Part shown: positions 26,833-56,747 of the stretch, piece after piece
How positions within the stretch are numbered: position 1 is the first letter of the stretch
Layout of the letters: each line of letters begins with the position of its first letter
From: Mycetocola zhujimingii
GTDB taxonomy: Bacteria > Actinomycetota > Actinomycetes > Actinomycetales > Microbacteriaceae
NCBI RefSeq assembly: GCF_003065425.1
Contig: NZ_CP026949.1
Coordinates: 2,604,001 to 2,668,000 of the forward strand
Direction of reading: 5' to 3'
DNA: 64,000 nt
Translations under genes and position numbers: made by a program
The notes under the pieces: generated by a model
What the model was told of the DNA's origin: nothing
Database searches by the model: none
What the model saw: the letters and a program-made list of their open reading frames with translations, nothing else

Positions 26833-29139
26833 GTGAGCATCCCCGCAACGTCTGTCGCCGACACTGTCTCGAACGCAATAGCCACTCCCGAGAAAGAGCA
26901 GCCGTACGCGGCTCTCGGGCTCAAGCCTGACGAGTACGAGAAGATCAAGGAGATCCTCGGCCGTCGTCCGACGTCGGGTGAGCTCGCGATGTACTCCGTG
27001 ATGTGGAGCGAGCACTGCTCATACAAGTCGAGCAAGATCTACCTGAAGCAGTTCGGCCAGAAGGTCACCCCCGCCATGAAGAAGAACCTCATGGTCGGCA
27101 TGGGCGAGAACGCCGGTGTCGTTGACGTCGGCGAGGGCTGGGCCGTCACCTTCAAGGTGGAGAGCCATAACCACCCGAGCTACATCGAGCCGTTCCAGGG
27201 CGCTGCGACGGGTGTCGGCGGAATCGTCCGCGACATCATCTCGATGGGAGCCCGCCCCGTCGCCATCATGGACCAGCTGCGGTTCGGCGCGATCGATGAC
27301 CCTGACACCGCGCGTGTCGTGCACGGCGTCACGAGCGGCATCTCCTTCTACGGCAACTGCCTGGGCCTGCCCAACATCGGCGGCGAGACCTACTTCGACA
27401 AGGTGTACCAGGGCAACCCGCTCGTCAACGCGCTCTCGGTCGGTGTGCTCCGCCACGAAGACCTGCACCTCGCCAACGCCTCGGGCGTCGGCAACAAGAT
27501 CGTCCTGTTCGGTGCGCGCACGGGCGGCGACGGGATCGGTGGTGCGTCGATTCTCGCGTCAGACTCCTTCGACGCTGCAGGCCCGACCAAGCGTCCGGCC
27601 GTCCAGGTCGGCGACCCCTTCGCCGAGAAGGTGCTTATCGAGTGCTGCCTCGAGCTCTACAAGGAGAAGCTCGTCGAGGGCATCCAGGACCTCGGCGCCG
27701 CCGGAATTTCCTGCGCGACCAGCGAGCTCGCGGCGAACGGCGACGGTGGCATGTTCATCGAGCTGTCGCACACGCTCCTCCGCGACCCCTCGCTTACGCC
27801 AGAGGAAATCCTCATGTCTGAGTCGCAGGAACGCATGATGGCCGTCGTCGAGCCCGACAAGCTCGAGGGCTTCCTCGCGGTCACCGCGAAGTGGGATGTC
27901 GAAACGAGCGTGATGGGTGAGGTTACCGACACCGGGCGGCTCATCATCAACTGGCACGGCGAGGAGATCGTCAACGTCGACCCGTCGACCGTTGCCGTCG
28001 ATGGACCCGTGTACGAGCGCCCCGTTGCCTACCCGGCCTGGCTCGACGCGCTGCAGGCCGACACGGCATCCGCCCTCGAACGCCCGACGGATGCCGAGAC
28101 GCTGCGTTCGCAGTTCTTCGCGCTGCTCGGTTCGGCGAACCTTGCCGACAAGAGCTGGATCACCAACCAGTACGACTACTACGTGATGGGCAACACCGCG
28201 CTGGCGTTCCCCGACGACGCCGGGATGATCCGCGTCGATGAGGAGTCCGGCCTTGGTTTCGCCATCGCGACGGATGCCAACGGTCGCTACTGCCAGCTCG
28301 ACCCGTCGCTCGGCGCGAAGCTTGCCCTCGCTGAGGCGTACCGCAACGTCGCGTGCACCGGTGCAGTGCCCGCTGCCGTCACCGACTGCCTCAACTTCGG
28401 TTCGCCCGAGAACCCCGAGGTGATGTGGCAGTTCTCGCAGGCCGTCGAGGGCCTGTCTGACGGCTGCCTCGAGCTCGAGGTGCCCGTCACCGGCGGAAAC
28501 GTGTCGTTCTACAACCAGACCGGCGACACCCCGATCTTCCCGACCCCGGTCGTCGGTGTGCTCGGCGTGATCGACGACGTCGCCCGTCGCGTTCCGAGCG
28601 GCTGGCAGGACGAGGGCGACAACATCTACCTGCTCGGCATCACCCGTGAGGAGCTCTCGGGCTCGGCGTGGGCCGGCACGATCCACGACCACCTCGGTGG
28701 CCTTCCGCCCGAGGTCGACTTCGACCGCGAGAAGGACCTCGCAGCGCTGCTGCACGCCGGTTCGCAGTCGTCGATCATCGCGTCGGCGCACGACCTCTCC
28801 GACGGCGGACTCGCCCAGGCACTCGCCGAGAGCGTGCTGCGCTTCGGCGTCGGTGCGCGCGTCTGGCTCAGCGAGATCGTCGAGCGCGATGGCGTCGACG
28901 TTGCGACCGCACTGTTCTCCGAGTCGACCGGGCGTGTGCTCGTGTCCGTTCCGCGCGAGGACGACGTCAAGTTCCGCGGACTCTGCGAGGGCCGCGACTA
29001 CCCGGTGCTGCGCATCGGCGTCACCGACAAGGCGTCACCAGCGCTCGAGATCCAGGACCTCTTCACCGCGACGGTCGATGAGCTGCGTTCGGTGCACACG
29101 GCGACACTCCCGGCGGCGTTCGGCCCGACCGTCGGCTAG
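26833..29139 (+). CDS. purL: FGAM synthase large subunit PurL
   Basis: A 768-residue small-type PurL, which needs PurS and PurQ. Features: [20 protein letters not shown] near residue 38, [14 protein letters not shown] near 106, [12 protein letters not shown] near 125 and the second AIRS-type half with [15 protein letters not shown] near 520 and [17 protein letters not shown] near 550. GTG start with AGGAG upstream. It is closed by a long hairpin at 29157-29204. Confidence 0.97.
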
Positions 29140-29156
29140 CGCTCCCTCGCTTTACC

Positions 29157-29204
29157 GACAATGGCTCCCTGAACCGGGTTTTCCCGGCACAGGGAGCCAT
29201 TGTC
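29157..29204. terminator. Terminator-like hairpin behind purL
   Basis: GACAATGGCTCCCTG (29157-29171) pairs perfectly with CAGGGAGCCATTGTC (29190-29204), with an inner CCGGG/CCCGG stem and TTTT loop. The same GGCTCCCTG core is used in the purQ terminator. No T-run follows the outer stem. Confidence 0.75.
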
Positions 29205-29284
29205 GTTCCCAGACGTGCGGTCGGCACAGGGGTGCGACGATGTGACGAACGGATGCCGACAAACATCCGTTCACCCCGCCCCGC

Positions 29285-29799
29285 TGCTCGGTCACAAACG
29301 GTCGCTGACCGGGCCCATCCCACGCTGCTCGGCCAGAAACGGTCGCGATCCCCAAGAAACTCCAGCCGTTTATGGCCGAGCAAGAAGCATCCAGCCATTT
29401 CTGGCCGAGCAGTGCTCACGGGCATCCGCTCACCCCGCCTCCTTACTCGGCCAGAAACGGTCGCTGCCCGGGCCCATCCCACGCTGCTCGGCCAGAAACG
29501 GTCGCTGCTCGGGCCTATTCCACGCTGCTCGGCCAGAAACGGTCGTGATCCCCAAGAAACTCCAGCCAATTTTGGCCGAGGAAGAAGCATCCAGCCATTT
29601 CTGGCCGAGCAGTGCTCACGGGCATCCGCTCAGCCCGCCCCGCTGCTCGGTCACAAACGGTCGCTGCCCGGGCGCATTCCACGCTGCTCGGCCAGAAACG
29701 GTCGTGATCCCCAAGAAACTCCAGCCATTTCTGACCGAGCAAGAAGCATCCAGCCATTTCTGGCCGAGCAAGAAGCATCCAGCCATTTCTGGCCGAGCA
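29285..29799. repeat. Array of 14 phased direct and inverted copies of a GCTCGGCCAGAAA motif
   Basis: Forward copies (TGCTCGGCCAGAAACGGTCG and variants) start at 29285, 29326, 29444, 29485, 29526, 29644 and 29685. Inverted copies (CCATTTCTGGCCGAGCA and variants) start at 29366, 29395, 29566, 29595, 29725, 29754 and 29783. Forward-to-forward spacing is always 41 bp, inverted-to-inverted always 29 bp, last forward to first inverted always 40 bp, and unit to unit always 49 bp. The array is three units of composition 2+2, 3+2 and 2+3. The spacers are conserved too. Spacings are not multiples of three, so it is not coding. Confidence 0.9.
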
Positions 29800-29823: not shown

Positions 29824-30489
29824 CTACAGCGCGCGGGTCAGCGACTGGATCAGAGGTGGGAGGGTGCCGAGCACGATGGGCGACCTCGCCATGTTGAGGT
29901 CGCCGCTTCCCTCGAGGATGGACTCCTGCATCGCTGCTTCGTAGACGTTGAGGATGAGCCGCGTGACGTCGACGGGATCGATGATGAACTCGAGCCCGAC
30001 CGACCGAACGGCGTCGTCGAGCCTGGCGGCGAGCTGCGACTGGAAGTTGCGCTGGAACTCGAGGTACGACGAGGCAACGCTCGAGTCGCGCATGGCCAGC
30101 AGCCGGAACTCGGACTGCACGAGGCACCACCGCCGGTCGTCGCCCTGCAGCTCGAGGAACTGCATCACGATCTGGCTGAGCGTGCCCTCGGTCACCGCGG
30201 CGGCAACGTCGACGCCGGGCAGAATCGAGTCGACGCCCTCCTGCAGGCGCTCGAACCGCAGCCGGTTCTCCCGCTCCGCGAGCGCGAAGAAGAGTTCTTC
30301 CTTCGACTCGAAGTTCGAGTAGAAGGCACCCCGCGTGAAATTCGCGCGCTCGGTGATCATTTCCACTGATGCCGCGTGGATCCCGGTTTCGGCGAACACC
30401 TCGTATGCGGCGTCGATCAAACGATCCCGGGTTTTGCGACGGCGCGTGGATTCGCCCTGCGCTTCCGATTGTTCGACTGAAAGAGACAC
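29824..30489 (-). CDS. TetR-family repressor of the MMPL-YhgE operon
   Basis: A 221-residue regulator. The N-terminal HTH is RDRLIDAAYEVFAETGIHAA, then VEMITERANFTRGAFYSNFE and SKEELFFAL; the helical C-terminal ligand domain is unremarkable. GTG start at 30489. It diverges from the MMPL gene, and three 16-bp palindromes lie between, so it very likely represses both itself and the transporter genes. The ligand is unknown. Confidence 0.93.
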   Translation of the reverse strand: MSLSVEQSEAQGESTRRRKTRDRLIDAAYEVFAETGIHAASVEMITERANFTRGAFYSNFESKEELFFALAERENRLRFERLQEGVDSILPGVDVAAAVTEGTLSQIVMQFLELQGDDRRWCLVQSEFRLLAMRDSSVASSYLEFQRNFQSQLAARLDDAVRSVGLEFIIDPVDVTRLILNVYEAAMQESILEGSGDLNMARSPIVLGTLPPLIQSLTRAL

Positions 30490-30516: not shown

Positions 30517-30566
30517 GATACACCAGTGTATCGGATACATTCGTGTATTGAATACGCCGGTGTATC
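30517..30566. promoter_or_regulatory. Three TetR-type operators phased by 17 bp
   Basis: GATACACCAGTGTATC (30517-30532, GATACAC/GTGTATC arms), GATACATTCGTGTATT (30534-30549) and AATACGCCGGTGTATC (30551-30566). Starts are exactly 17 bp apart. The first is a perfect palindrome, the other two are degenerate. They lie between the divergent tetR and MMPL genes and cover the likely -10 regions (for example TACACT on the minus strand). Confidence 0.8.
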
Positions 30567-30606: not shown

Positions 30607-33447
30607 GTGTCCTCACTGCTCTACTCACTCGGCCGCTGGGCGTTCCGCGCGCGCGGCATCGTCGTCGGTGCCTGGATCCTCATCCTTGCCCTCGTCGGCG
30701 GTGGCGCCCTCCTGTTCAACCAGGGACTCGACAACTCGATCTCCATCCCCGGCACCGAGTCACAGGAAGCACTCGACTCGCTGTCGACGACCTTCCCGCA
30801 GGTGAGTGGTGCATCGGCCCAGCTCGCGGTCGTGGCACCAGAGGGCGACAAGGTCACCGACGAGGAGATCGAGAAGGTCATTACCGAGGGGGTCGACGCC
30901 CTCAGCGAGATCGAGGGCATCGAGAGCGTCGTGTCTCCCTTCGATGAGAACATCACCGGCGCCGTCAGCGACGACGAGCGCGCGGCTCTCATCAGCATCC
31001 AGCTCGACGGCCCGCAGTACGAGGTCACCGAGGCGACCAAGGATGCCATGATCGCAGAAGCGGATGCCATCGCTGACGCACTCCCGGAAGGCTCCGAATC
31101 CGCGCTCGGCGGCCAGCTGTTCAGCGCGAGCTTCCCCGTCCTCACGGCGACCGAGCTCATCGGTGTCGGCGTTGCGCTGGTGGTTCTCCTCCTCACGCTC
31201 GGCTCGTTCCTCGCGGCGGGCATGCCCCTGATCACGGCGCTTCTCGGTGTCGGCATCTCTGTTGCGCTCATCTTTGTGGCAACGGCGTTCGGCTCGATCA
31301 CGTCAACGACGCCGATGCTCGCCCTCATGCTCGGACTGGCGGTCGGCATCGACTACGCCCTGTTCATCATCTCGAGATACCAGGAGCAACTCAGGGACGG
31401 TCTGGAGACCGAGGAGTCTGCCGCACGAAGCGTCGCGACGGCGGGAAGCGCCGTCATCTTCGCGGGCCTCACGGTCATCATCGCGCTTGTCGGACTCGGC
31501 GTTGCCGGCATCCCCTTCCTCACGATCATGGGTGTTTCAGCGGCGGCCGGAGTCGCCATCGCCGTGCTCATCTCGATCACGCTCATCCCCGCGTTCCTCG
31601 GCTTCGCCGGCGAGCGACTGCGTCCAAAGCCCGCCAAGGCGTCGCGCAAGGCGCGCCGCGCGCACGCTGCCGCCCACGCTGAGGGCGGGGCTGCCCACGC
31701 AGAGGGTCGTACCGGTGCAACCGATGGGGCCGCGGGCGAACTGGAGCCGCAGGCATCCGCTCACCGTCCCAACCGATTCTTCTCGGGCTGGGTGAAGACC
31801 GCGACGCGATTCCCGATTGTCACGGTCCTCGCCGTTGTCGCCGTCCTCGGCCTGCTCTCGGCGCCGGCACTTGGCCTGCGCCTCGCGCTGCCGGATGCCG
31901 GTGGCCTGCCAGAGGGCGACCCGGCTCGCGTGACCTACGACATCGTCTCCGACAACTTTGGTGAGGGCTTCAACGGCCCGCTCATCGTCACGGGCAGCAT
32001 CGTCACGTCGACTGACCCGCTCGGCCTCATGGACGACCTCAAGAGCGAGATCGAAAAGCTCGACGGCGTCGAAGCTGTTCCTCTGGCGACACCGAACGAG
32101 ACGGCTGACACCGGCATCGTCCAGGTGATCCCGACCGGCGGCCCTGACTCCCCGGAGACCAAGGCTCTCGTCGCCGAGATCCGTGAGATGCACGACTACT
32201 TCCTCGATGAGTATGACGTCGACCTCTCGGTCACGGGCTTCACCGCCGTCGGTATCGACGTGTCGGACAAGCTCGGTGGAGCGCTGCTGCCGTTCGGTGC
32301 GATCGTCGTCGGCCTCTCCCTCATCCTGCTCACCATGGTGTTCCGCTCGATCTGGGTACCGATCAAGGCGACCCTCGGCTACTTGCTCAGCGTCTGCGCC
32401 TCGTTCGGTGTCGTCGCCCTGGTATTCGAGTACGGATGGTTCGCCGAGGCTCTCCACATCCAGCCGGGCAGCCCCGTGATCAGCTTCATGCCGATCATCC
32501 TGATGGGTGTGCTGTTCGGTCTCGCCATGGACTACGAGGTCTTCCTCGTCGCCCGCATGCGCGAGGACTACGTCCACTCGGGCAAGGCACGCGAGTCGGT
32601 CACGACCGGGTTCATCGGCTCAGCAAAGGTGGTCACTGCGGCCGCGATCATCATGTTCGCCGTGTTCGCTGCCTTCGTGCCTGAGGGTGACACCAACATC
32701 AAGCCCATCGCGCTCGGCCTCGCCGTCGGCGTGTTCGTCGACGCGTTCATCGTGCGGATGACCCTCGTCCCCGCCGTACTCGCCCTGCTCGGCGAGAAGG
32801 CGTGGTGGATCCCGAAGTGGCTCGACCGTGCGCTGCCGTCGTTCGACGTCGAGGGCGAGGGTGTCGCCAAGGAGATCGAGCTGCGCACCTGGCCGAGCCC
32901 GGAGTCGACGGATGTCGCAACGGCTGAGGGCCTGTCCCTCGACGCCGACAAGACCACCCTGTTCGAGAACGTCTCGTTCTCGCTGCCGCAGGACGGCACG
33001 CTCGTGGTCTCCTCCAGTCGCGACGCGAGCGTCACCGCGCTGCTGCTGACCCTGTCGGGTCGCATGACGGCGGACTCAGGCATTCTCAAGGTCGCCGGCT
33101 ACGTAGCCGGCGTTCGTGGGGCATCCATTCGGTCGCGCGTCGCATTCGTTTCGCTCGGTGATGCAACCGACCCGGTCCGCGACCTCACCGATGCGCTCGG
33201 GGAGAACCCGCGCCTCGTGGTGATCGACGGCATTGACCAGGTGACGGATGCCGTTGCGCGCCGCAACATCTACGACGCTCTCGTCTCAGCACAGGGTGCG
33301 GCCACGAGGAGCGAAACCACTCTCGCGGTTGCCGTCGGCACCGCATTCCCCGAAGCGCTGGCAGACGCCGTTCCTGGCGTCGGAACAGCCGTTCGGGTCG
33401 ACTTGACACACTCAGAACTCACGCACGAAGCAGAGGTATCCGCATGA
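30607..33447 (+). CDS. MMPL/RND-family transporter fused to a degenerate ABC ATPase domain
   Basis: A 946-residue protein starting at the GTG at 30607 with AGGAG upstream. Residues 1-760 are an MMPL transporter: two repeats, each with a large extracytoplasmic loop and five to six helices, including the family signature LGLAVGIDYALFIISRYQEQ and GLAMDYEVFLVARMREDY. Residues about 765-940 look like an ABC nucleotide-binding domain (TTLFENVSFSLPQDGTLVV, TLSGRMTADSGILKVAG), but the Walker A loop is replaced by SSSRDASVT and the Walker B region reads LVVIDGIDQ. ATP hydrolysis there is unlikely. It overlaps the YhgE gene by 4 bp. A lipid or drug export role is inferred. Confidence 0.88.
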   Translation: MSSLLYSLGRWAFRARGIVVGAWILILALVGGGALLFNQGLDNSISIPGTESQEALDSLSTTFPQVSGASAQLAVVAPEGDKVTDEEIEKVITEGVDALSEIEGIESVVSPFDENITGAVSDDERAALISIQLDGPQYEVTEATKDAMIAEADAIADALPEGSESALGGQLFSASFPVLTATELIGVGVALVVLLLTLGSFLAAGMPLITALLGVGISVALIFVATAFGSITSTTPMLALMLGLAVGIDYALFIISRYQEQLRDGLETEESAARSVATAGSAVIFAGLTVIIALVGLGVAGIPFLTIMGVSAAAGVAIAVLISITLIPAFLGFAGERLRPKPAKASRKARRAHAAAHAEGGAAHAEGRTGATDGAAGELEPQASAHRPNRFFSGWVKTATRFPIVTVLAVVAVLGLLSAPALGLRLALPDAGGLPEGDPARVTYDIVSDNFGEGFNGPLIVTGSIVTSTDPLGLMDDLKSEIEKLDGVEAVPLATPNETADTGIVQVIPTGGPDSPETKALVAEIREMHDYFLDEYDVDLSVTGFTAVGIDVSDKLGGALLPFGAIVVGLSLILLTMVFRSIWVPIKATLGYLLSVCASFGVVALVFEYGWFAEALHIQPGSPVISFMPIILMGVLFGLAMDYEVFLVARMREDYVHSGKARESVTTGFIGSAKVVTAAAIIMFAVFAAFVPEGDTNIKPIALGLAVGVFVDAFIVRMTLVPAVLALLGEKAWWIPKWLDRALPSFDVEGEGVAKEIELRTWPSPESTDVATAEGLSLDADKTTLFENVSFSLPQDGTLVVSSSRDASVTALLLTLSGRMTADSGILKVAGYVAGVRGASIRSRVAFVSLGDATDPVRDLTDALGENPRLVVIDGIDQVTDAVARRNIYDALVSAQGAATRSETTLAVAVGTAFPEALADAVPGVGTAVRVDLTHSELTHEAEVSA

Positions 33448-53650: not shown

Positions 53651-55661
53651 ATGGAAAACAACGACAGAGCAGTCGGTCCTCCAGGCGAGGAGCCGGAGGC
53701 CGAGGCCGACGCGGAGCAGGAGCCCGATTCCGTACCGGAGTCTGGGTCCGATCCCCAGCCGCAATCCGACGTCGCGTCCATGCCGGAGAGCGACGCCGAT
53801 TCCGATGCGGATGCCGATGCCGATGCCGATGCCGATGCCGAACCTGAGCCCGATTCTGATTCCGATTCCGATTCCGAGCCTGAACCTGAGGCTGAGCCGA
53901 CGTTGTTTGCGCGGATCGCTGACACGTGTACGGCGTTGGTTGACGCGGTCGGCCAGGTGGAACGGTTGGAGGCGCGTCAGGCGGCGTGGAAGGCGGAGTT
54001 CATCGACCGGGCCAGGACGCTCGCGCTGACCGCGGAGGAAGGGGTGCTCGACGCCCGGCCACACTCCGCGGCGCAGACCGTGGCGCAGCGCGTGGCGGAG
54101 CGTCGGGATGTGGCGTTGCGGTCGTTCACGGCGGAGTTGGCGTGTGTGTTGCGGGTGTCTGAACGCACCGCGACCGCGCTGATCGATGACAGCGAAGCGT
54201 TGATGCACCGGCTGCCGGCGACTCTGGCGGCGTTGCGGGAGGGAGAGATCAGTTACCGGCACGCCCAGCAACTGGTCGACCAAATCCAGCACCCTCACCG
54301 ATGGTGCGGCGGCGGAACTGGAGGAGAAGGCGTTGCCGTTTGCCCGGACGATGCCGGTGGCGAGGTTCCGGCAGAAGACGAGGATGTTGCGGGAACGGTT
54401 GTGTCCGGAGTCCGCGGTCGCCCGGTGTGTGAAGTCCGTACAAGATCGTCGGGTGGAGCTGCTGCCGGCGGCGGACGGGATGGCGTGGCTGAACCTGTTC
54501 ACCACCGCGCCGGCCGCGGAGACGATCTTCGACACGATCCGGGCGCAGTCGATGAAACTGCAATCACCGGCCGAACCACGGACCCTGTCCCAACTCGACG
54601 CCGACGTGATCTTCGCGGCGATGATGGAGGCGTTCACCGGCGAGTTCACCCTGTCCGATCCCACCGGAACCCGCCTCTTTGGCACCGGACTCGGCACCCG
54701 CAACCCCTACACCGAAACACACAACGGCAACGGCACCAGCAACGGCACCAGCAACCGCAACGGCACCAGTGAGGATGGCGTGACAGCCATCACGTTCACT
54801 GGCCGTGACGGTGGCTCGGGTACCGCACCCGCCGACAGTGACAGCGGTAGCGCCACCAACACCGGTGACCGGCCCGGCCCAAGCCGGTCGGGGCCTGGTC
54901 GTGACCCGGCGACCGCGTTCCGGAAGATCGTGCCCACCGTGATGGTCACCGTCCCGGCCCTCACCCTCCTCGGTAAAAGTGTCGAACCGGGCAACCTCGA
55001 CGGATACGGCCCCATCGACCCGGACACCGCCAGGGAACTGGCCTCCCAGGCGCCGGAGTTCAGCCGGATCCTGACCCACCCCGAAACCGGAGTCGCCCTG
55101 TCCCTCGGCCACACCAAATACACCCCATCGAAGGCGATGCGACGGTTCCTTCGCTACCGCGACGGATACTGCCGGTTTCCCGGCTGCACCCGCAAAGCGG
55201 TGTCGAGTGATATCGACCACACCGAGCCATACGACACCGGCGGAAACACCGACTTCGACAACCTCGCCAGCCTTTGCCCCAAACACCACAAGCTGAAACA
55301 CGAAACCAACTGGCTGGTCGAGCAACTCGGTGACGGGATCCTGAAATGGACCTCACCCCACGGGCGGCAATACACGACCCACCCCGAGAACCCCGTTCGA
55401 AACCCGATCCCACCGGCGAAACCGGCACCACCGAGAGCGGCAGCACGGAAACCCGCCGGGGTTACTGAACCGGGCGACACCCCCGCAACCCAGGCACAGG
55501 AGGAAGACGCCCGGCTGAACAACGTCTACACCCGACTCCTCGACGCCCAGAGAGAAAAACGCGAGAGGGAAACAAACCAAAGAAGGAAAGCGGATGCCAC
55601 TAATGAAGGGGATGCTTCGCAAGATGGCGAACCGCGGGACAACGACAGTCCGCCGTTCTGA
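53651..55661 (+). pseudogene. DUF222/13E12-type HNH endonuclease gene with a frameshift
   Basis: The reading frame from the ATG at 53651 (MENNDRAVGPPGEEPEAEAD) runs to about 54290. From there homology continues in the +1 frame to 55661. An extra C in CCAGCACCCTCACC explains it: without it the protein would read QLVDQIQTLTDGAAAELEEK and be about 670 residues. The N-terminus is acidic (DADADADA, 53798-53839), then the DUF222 helical domain. The C-terminal HNH motif is intact (YCRFPGCTRKAVSSDIDHTE, then LCPKHHKLKH). It sits between the TasA-like operon and the peptidase gene, in the opposite orientation. A sequencing error is possible. Confidence 0.82.
53798..53839 (+). repeat. Hexanucleotide repeat inside the HNH gene
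   Basis: Seven tandem hexamers of the type GATGCC (GATTCC, GATGCG, then five GATGCC) encode Asp-Ser-Asp-Ala repeats. Copy-number changes would keep the frame. Confidence 0.8.
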
Positions 55662-55679: not shown

Positions 55680-56747
55680 CTACTCTTGGGCAGGCTCTTC
55701 GGTTCGAGCACGCCTGAGACTGCGGCGGGTGGGTGCATCTCCGGCGGGAACAACCGGCGCGCCGGTGATCCCCTCAGCTGCGACGGCAGAAGCGGTGGCG
55801 GGAGCTGATGCGGATGCGGCTGCGGCTGCGGCTGCGGCTGCGGCTGCGGCTGCGGCTGCGGCTGCGGCGGACCGATTCAGGTCGTCGTCAACCGGCTCGT
55901 TCGCACCAACCGGATTCATGAGAACGGCCCCTGTGGCTGCCGATTCGCGATCACCCTCACCGGTCGGCTCACCCTCGGACGTAACCGCCGACTCGCGAAC
56001 ACCCTCACCGCTCGACTCGCCCTCTGGCGCTCCCGCGGACTCGTGTTCAGCTTCTCCGGTCGACTCGCCCTTCGACCCAACCGCTTCGTCCGTGACGCTC
56101 TTTTTCCGACGAATCACCGCGACCACGAGTGTGACCAGCGCGTAACCGATCAGGGCAACGCCCAACCCCTGAGCGAGCCAGGTACGAGTGTCGTTCGTGA
56201 CGCCGTTGCTGAAATATCCGATGATCGGGAGCCAGTACCAGACCTTGCCGCGAATTTGTTCCTCACGGACCAGTCCCGGATCGGGAGCCGGGTTCGCGTC
56301 GCCCTGAGTTTCGAGCCGTACGCCCTCGCCACTCACGTTGACGCCGATCACACGGTGCGTCACAACCTCCGGCTCGCCGGAGGAAATCTGGTAGGTGATG
56401 ACATCACCGACCGCAATGTCGCCAAAATCGACAGGCTTTACCACGACCGTTGTGCCCGGTGGCATCGACGGACGCATTGAGCCGGTCAGCACCGTGTATG
56501 GCGTCGAGCCGGTCAGACGCGGCACGAGCACAAAGGCAACGAGGAGCAACCCGCAGACAAGGAGCACAGCCCAACTCACGACGCGAACCAGGTTGCCAGG
56601 AAGCCGCGTCAGCAGAGAACCCCTGGATTCTGTGGCAGAGGTATCCGGCAGAGCGGTGTCGGGAGCAGAACCGGACCCATCCGCAGAAGTGCCCGCAGCA
56701 CCGTTAACAGACGGATGCACCGTTGCATCCGCCACAGGTTCGCCCAT
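55680..56747 (-). CDS. Signal peptidase I of the SipW (ER/archaeal) type
   Basis: A 355-residue peptidase. Helix 1 spans about residues 58-76. The nucleophile Ser90 lies in LTGSMRPSMPPGT, and His131 in EVVTHRVIG replaces the bacterial catalytic lysine, the mark of SipW/ER-type enzymes. GDVITYQIS near 114 and GDANPAPDP are also typical. A second helix is at about 185-207. The last 145 residues are low-complexity: Glu/Ser/Gly-rich, then 16 or more alanines (hexamer repeat 55807-55866). It follows purA by 4 bp and very probably cuts the TasA-like precursors 3 kb away. Confidence 0.9.
   Translation of the reverse strand: MGEPVADATVHPSVNGAAGTSADGSGSAPDTALPDTSATESRGSLLTRLPGNLVRVVSWAVLLVCGLLLVAFVLVPRLTGSTPYTVLTGSMRPSMPPGTTVVVKPVDFGDIAVGDVITYQISSGEPEVVTHRVIGVNVSGEGVRLETQGDANPAPDPGLVREEQIRGKVWYWLPIIGYFSNGVTNDTRTWLAQGLGVALIGYALVTLVVAVIRRKKSVTDEAVGSKGESTGEAEHESAGAPEGESSGEGVRESAVTSEGEPTGEGDRESAATGAVLMNPVGANEPVDDDLNRSAAAAAAAAAAAAAAAAAASASAPATASAVAAEGITGAPVVPAGDAPTRRSLRRARTEEPAQE
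55807..55866 (-). repeat. Poly-alanine hexamer repeat in the signal peptidase tail
   Basis: Ten tandem hexamers (two GATGCG, eight GCTGCG on the plus strand) encode most of the poly-Ala tract. Unit length is a multiple of three, so slippage would change tail length without breaking the gene. Confidence 0.85.

Follow-up and report, generated by a model that had tools for sequence, protein, structure and literature searches.

Interspersed palindromic repeats are usually ascribed to RAYT transposases. Repetitive extragenic palindromic (REP) sequences and bacterial interspersed mosaic elements (BIMEs) lie at gene ends, form arrays of alternating orientation and regular spacing, and flank one gene on both sides, with one repeat type per gene lineage (PMC2817692, in the part of the text available). 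Paired repeats of another kind are bound by proteins of the AbiE type IV toxin-antitoxin system; according to the accessible part of one study, AbiEi binds two 23-bp inverted repeats that stand 3 bp apart, and Rv2827c binds two pairs, four 23-bp repeats in all, with 13 bp between the members of a pair (PMC7319586). The array described here lies behind purL, at positions 29285-29799 of a 64-kb stretch of Mycetocola zhujimingii DNA (the window, i.e., the whole stretch that was analysed), and is classed here with the interspersed palindromic repeats, although its associated enzyme is another one. With moderate confidence, we interpret it as a cluster of recognition sites for a nuclease in which an AbiEi-like part is fused to a Vsr-like part, and the inverted site pairs (dyads) and arrays found at gene ends as copies or remnants.

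Six members of the genus were compared, the genome under study (G000, with its contig C1) and five sister species (G001-G005). The site has the consensus TGCTCGGNCR-N5-GG(CT/TC)G, and about 29 arrays of it are present in the G000 chromosome. In the whole G000 genome, 71 matches with at most one mismatch were found, against 2 for the reversed control, and the stretches around these matches hold 142 clustered copies in 28 arrays, or 29 when one degenerate dyad is counted. Each unit consists of a 57-bp dyad, with its two inverted sites 38 bp apart, and of outer direct copies, mostly at 29-32 or 38-42 bp. Measured between 15-mer starts in the stretches of all six genomes, adjacent forward-reverse (F-R) pairs stand at 38 bp in 87 of 102 cases; same-strand neighbours stand at 29-32 bp in 155 of 262 pairs, at 38-42 bp in 55 and at 34-37 bp in a single one, the two classes being about one helical turn apart. 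A spacing rule had been noticed in the preliminary description as a property of the array behind purL; the rule is real, but it is not merely local, as the spacing classes hold genus-wide.

The dyad with a free middle, at up to two mismatches, has 34, 26, 24, 1, 18 and 16 matches in G000 to G005, respectively. Beyond the genus, 243 genomes were searched, of which four gave one match each and 239 none; the reversed control gave one match in 12 genomes. An AAA-specific dyad (at most three mismatches) was present in 8 of 398 family genomes, namely the six genus members, G125 and G141. The 38-bp geometry was also read, with other letters, in dyads of G168, G219 and G125, and by hand count it occurs in Labedella and several Cryobacterium. 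The outer word CGCGAGAG matched 47 of 299 genomes, many of them by chance since the reversed control matches too, so that these serve as examples only. The motif search in this genome and its relatives thus brought out an array family across the genus, and the reading as a neutral local amplification fails, as dyads are present in all six members, with at least 16 in five of them and several in the same gene gaps. A phage or plasmid origin was dropped because the array site had no match among viral contigs, plasmids or phages. Two repeats of other kinds were seen in relatives: in Rathayibacter (L061 and L062, 5311-5872), short palindromes around CAGAAGTTGCGG, of about 42 nt each and with a geometry unlike the 57-bp dyad, are repeated behind purL, and in Microbacteriaceae VKM Ac-2855 (L041, 7480-7670), a 46-bp tandem unit stands in four copies behind a gene, with a complete hairpin at its end.

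Genes of about 0.9 kb were often found between two dyads of one kind. Eight such genes were compared and six proved to belong to a single protein family, of which the fetched loci contain 18 members (13 from purL loci, 5 from whole-genome loci); L024:6970-7893 and L009:2951-3961, suspected at first, are not of this nuclease family. A gene was scored as flanked when at least 12 positions are shared by the four 17-nt arms of its left and right dyads (span 50-65). This was the case for 9 of the 18 family genes and for 1 of 201 control genes, as well as for 17 of 30 best matches in relatives' genomes and 15 of 40 further copies; some genes are common to these sets (the copies of G000, G003 and G004 and, probably, the pairs L029/G012 and L065/G008). 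When a gene's own left and right flanks were paired, 32 of 70 pairs were positive, against 25 of 4830 pairs mismatched between genes. The span is the same on both sides in 31 of the 32 flanked units, most commonly 57, and the dyads stand at a median of 86.5 bp upstream of the gene (counted to its first matched residue) and 7 bp past the stop. Between different units, left arms agree on average at 5 of 17 positions. Units of dyad, nuclease and dyad, about 1.1-1.2 kb long, are found repeatedly among relatives, and every unit has a site sequence of its own. The only control gene that scored as flanked (L035, 1832-2908, Leifsonia aquatica) has GTCACGACRCGCCC words, and no nuclease-family frame was found in its locus.

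In G000, the candidate partner is a gene of about 300 codons (C1:215846-216736) that lies outside the window, with an array of the same site on either side. The six genus genomes contain 37 copies of the nuclease family, of which 27 were examined, and the lineage of the G000 gene is represented by one copy per genome, with 71-76% identity to the G000 copy. The flanks of these six copies carry 14 TGCTCGG-type sites in G000, 13 in G004, 10 in G001, 7 in G005, 2 in G002 and 1 in G003. At least two such sites flank five of the six lineage copies and none of the 21 other copies, seven of which have one; G003, with its single flank site, is also the genome with only one dyad of the same kind. Behind purL, a nuclease gene occupies the gap in G003 and at 13 of 80 other loci; others carry an array or dyad there, a lone dyad in the case of Cryobacterium N22.

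With PADLOC, the family shows similarity to AbiEi, with a best value of 1.7e-14 for the G000 copy and AbiEi-like as the best model in 5 of 15 members; weak similarity to DUF559/REase_MTES_1575 was seen in 13 of 15 members at E <= 1. In an AlphaFold model of the L096 member (mean pLDDT 85.6), residues 50-192 match AbiEi and residues 195-302 match the homing endonuclease I-Bth0305I and Vsr. These fold assignments come from a second look at the model, beyond Foldseek, which by itself gave no match at E <= 0.001. The G000 protein is predicted to combine an AbiEi-like part with a C-terminal Vsr/homing-endonuclease-like domain, and in alignment A1 the residues E181, D214, H231 and D241 are kept in 15 of 15 rows, as in an active nuclease. 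Two observations weigh against recognition of the sites by this protein: the matched AbiEi part (residues 55-195) is mainly the C-terminal domain without the DNA-binding part, and family residues 1-50 are poorly modelled and lie outside the matched range. The DNA-binding winged helix of AbiEi is N-terminal, as stated in the accessible part of the source (PMC7319586). Our confidence in the proposed interpretation, and in the gene-drive-like one given below, was lowered because the match omits the DNA-binding part.

The system resembles AbiE in the predicted AbiEi-like fold of the middle part of the G000 family, in its paired inverted repeats and in their geometry, the 57-bp dyad being close to the Rv2827c pairs of 23-bp repeats. 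It differs by an extra nuclease domain and by sites that stand on either side of the gene and also at numerous distant loci. A DUF1814 (AbiEii) toxin gene was not found beside the G000 copy, the only one considered in this respect, whose called neighbours are gdhA and a lipid kinase. With Vsr-like homing endonucleases such as I-Bth0305I the protein shares the predicted Vsr-type catalytic fold, but here the gene is free-standing between its own palindromes. As in REP/BIME-RAYT systems, palindromic extragenic repeats stand at gene ends in regularly spaced arrays of alternating orientation, and a gene is repeat-flanked on both sides with one repeat type per lineage, although the flanked gene is an AbiEi-like/Vsr-like nuclease and the dyads span 50-64 bp. 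RAYT (Y1_Tnp, PF01797) was found in none of the six genus genomes at E <= 0.001 and in 5 of 14 control genomes; an identity with REP/RAYT was therefore rejected. REP repeats have a GTAG or CGTC tag at the repeat end (PMC3733652, in the part available); by eye none was seen in the site consensus, no dedicated test having been made.

In the window, TGCTCGGNCANAAANGG-type sites occupy the gap between purL and a convergent TetR-family gene. The site search bore out the count of seven forward and seven inverted copies, arranged as FFRR FFFRR FFRRR, which are the three units of 2+2, 3+2 and 2+3 proposed in the preliminary description. Its start-to-start spacings were reproduced with a 17-mer (F-F 41, F-R 40, R-R 29, R-F 49); with the 15-mer CTCGGCCAGAAANGG they are 41, 38, 29 and 51, respectively. 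At up to one mismatch, this 15-mer finds 11 of the 14 array copies and nothing elsewhere in the window; at up to three, it finds 19 window places against 8.7 expected, a number reached in 1 of 100 shuffles. CRISPR arrays have one repeat orientation and unique spacers, unlike the alternating orientation, two spacing classes and repeated spacers seen here, in line with their exclusion at the outset. The features of the locus are as follows.

29285..29799, no strand: whole array, 14 sites, FFRR FFFRR FFRRR
29326..29382, no strand: dyad 1, 57 bp, inverted site pair, 38 bp start to start
29526..29582, no strand: dyad 2, 57 bp
29685..29741, no strand: dyad 3, 57 bp
29287..29301, + strand: outer direct site F (CTCGGTCACAAACGG)
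29395..29409, - strand: outer direct site R, inner R 29 bp away
29446..29460, + strand: outer direct site F
29487..29501, + strand: outer direct site F, 41 bp apart
29595..29609, - strand: outer direct site R
29646..29660, + strand: outer direct site F
29754..29768, - strand: outer direct site R
29783..29797, - strand: outer direct site R
26833..29139, + strand: purL, whose 3' end the array follows
29156..29205, + strand: purL's own hairpin, 23-nt arms, distinct from the array
29824..30489, - strand: TetR-family gene, convergent, stop 26 bp from the array

The gap from the TetR gene to a gene at 30607-33447 that is transporter-like by eye contains 2.9 copies of a 17-bp palindromic word (30517-30566), perhaps the TetR operator. 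Hexamer and 48-bp tandem repeats are also present in the window (53791-53877, 55809-55868 and 55939-56084).

A long hairpin is possible at each F-R pair, and in other genera the inner arms differ between loci yet seem complementary by eye. Both are expected if the array is a structured RNA or DNA hairpin whose fold is under selection. This was examined by exchanging arms between dyads within each genome, after near-identical dyads had been merged (110 to 90, a set that includes a few chance dyads). In G000, the arms of 28 dyads agree at 497 positions, against 501.7 after exchange (p 0.70), and in the sister species at 735 against 715.9 (p 0.09). Motif positions 6-13 showed a weak excess in the full set of 90 dyads (462 against 444.0, p 0.037), and g100 had a clearer one (120 against 109.9, p 0.0035); both speak for the fold and against recognition of single sites. 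Covariation of the F-R hairpin seemed present when species were pooled (inner total 208 against 182.1, p 0.008), but the signal was removed in G000 by shuffling within the genome and was weak elsewhere. A mini-hairpin within the 15-mer (stem CGGNC/GGYYG) is possible in 80 of 142 copies, but changes at positions 4 and 6 are uncompensated, and this reading was rejected. The Rfam search gave nothing at the gathering score and two sub-threshold matches. Since arm agreement shows no excess in G000 and outer copies are often partnerless, recognition of single sites by a protein is favoured over a selected hairpin, which we consider very improbable, and for G000 the structured element of the preliminary description found no support as a selected feature. 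Judged from sequence, each site in G000 seems to be read singly, presumably by a protein. Among the readings first offered, a protein-binding array is the best supported and a mobile-element residue is plausible.

Genes were called with a codon-score script, by which starts are rough. Among 73 arrays of the six genomes (for the sister species, those among the matches listed), 5 inside called genes, none of these being G000 arrays, and 4 lacking any neighbour within 800 bp were set aside. The G000 arrays mostly lie just behind stop codons. The 64 classified arrays comprise 23 in convergent, 31 in tandem and 10 in divergent gaps, against 11, 52 and 40 among 103 other gaps of at least 100 bp, a convergent excess with p 1.3e-4. 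Stop codons lie at a median distance of 40 bp (77 values) and starts at 124 bp (51 values). Of the 31 tandem gaps, 18 have more copies on the side of the upstream gene, 8 equally many on both sides and 5 fewer. Together with neighbours such as purL, gdhA, glnA and pnp, this is what would be expected if the dyads were host terminators or insulators, i.e., bidirectional transcription stops or roadblocks behind genes that the nuclease merely uses. This explanation is nevertheless rather unlikely: a separate hairpin precedes the array position at purL (G000) and, by eye, at pnp (six of six species), no T-run follows the dyads by eye, the 10 divergent arrays do not fit, and the flanking of one nuclease lineage is left unexplained.

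Gaps with arrays in at least two species include those at purL, pnp, gdhA/lipid kinase, a MATE transporter and others. Against a shared-gap pattern, the purL array is missing in G002 and G003, no site stands behind pnp in G003, and the glnA array is present in G000 only. At the pnp 3' end of G001 and G005 (L214, L216), a dyad of another dialect was seen by eye (CGATCGGNCC...), which indicates that one gap holds different dialects in sister species. The several positions kept between species are consistent with an operator network, in which the arrays would be functional sites, without mobility, of an AbiEi-like protein domesticated as a regulator or nucleoid protein. AbiEi proteins autorepress via paired inverted repeats (PMC7319586, accessible part), and the 29 G000 arrays lie at a median of 225 kb from the origin, against 790 expected (p 6e-5; dnaA at C1:1141). 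With neighbours merged into 16 clusters, however, the origin bias has p 0.18 and is not claimed. The arrays stand at stops rather than promoters, their content differs widely between species, and the four residues named above are invariant, as in an active nuclease. An operator network is thus unlikely.

For the favoured interpretation, a cluster of nuclease sites, the following mechanism is proposed. By summing, an Rv2827c pair measures 59 bp, close to the 57-bp dyad; it is therefore proposed that two monomers of the fusion nuclease occupy each dyad, whose inverted sites measure about 23 bp, probably in the way of AbiEi and Rv2827c, with extra direct sites about three or four helical turns further out. 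The nuclease would also cut, thereby spreading sites to other gene ends; we infer this because of the nuclease fold and because the purL gap holds either a nuclease gene or an array or dyad. Single dyads and 3'-end arrays, the one in the window included, would most likely be copies or remnants, spread via nuclease-triggered recombination and then multiplied locally. What the sequences show is the site family with its geometry and position, its link to one nuclease lineage and the predicted folds of the middle and C-terminal protein parts; binding, cutting, spreading and any advantage for the host are inferred. Tentatively, and with somewhat less than even confidence, the system may represent a mobile, gene-drive-like class, in which AbiEi/Vsr-fusion nucleases would recognise and cleave the dyads of about 57 bp at their own flanks, place copies of themselves and of these sites in gene 3' ends and shift site specificity by lineage, giving rise to transposase-free arrays similar to REP/BIME.

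Repeat and nuclease together suggest a little-known selfish or regulatory DNA system. In the literature searched, with subscription journals outside its scope, no paper joining DUF559 and AbiEi was found, nor a title on these repeats among the matches listed. An unrelated nuclease family seems to fill the role of RAYT in a genus without RAYT in six of six genomes. Otherwise unexplained intergenic repeats are thereby given a concrete partner, a single gene of about 300 codons together with its 57-bp site. The many protein-site pairs offer material for studying how DNA specificity changes, and proteins of the DUF559/MTES_1575 type gain a possible function.
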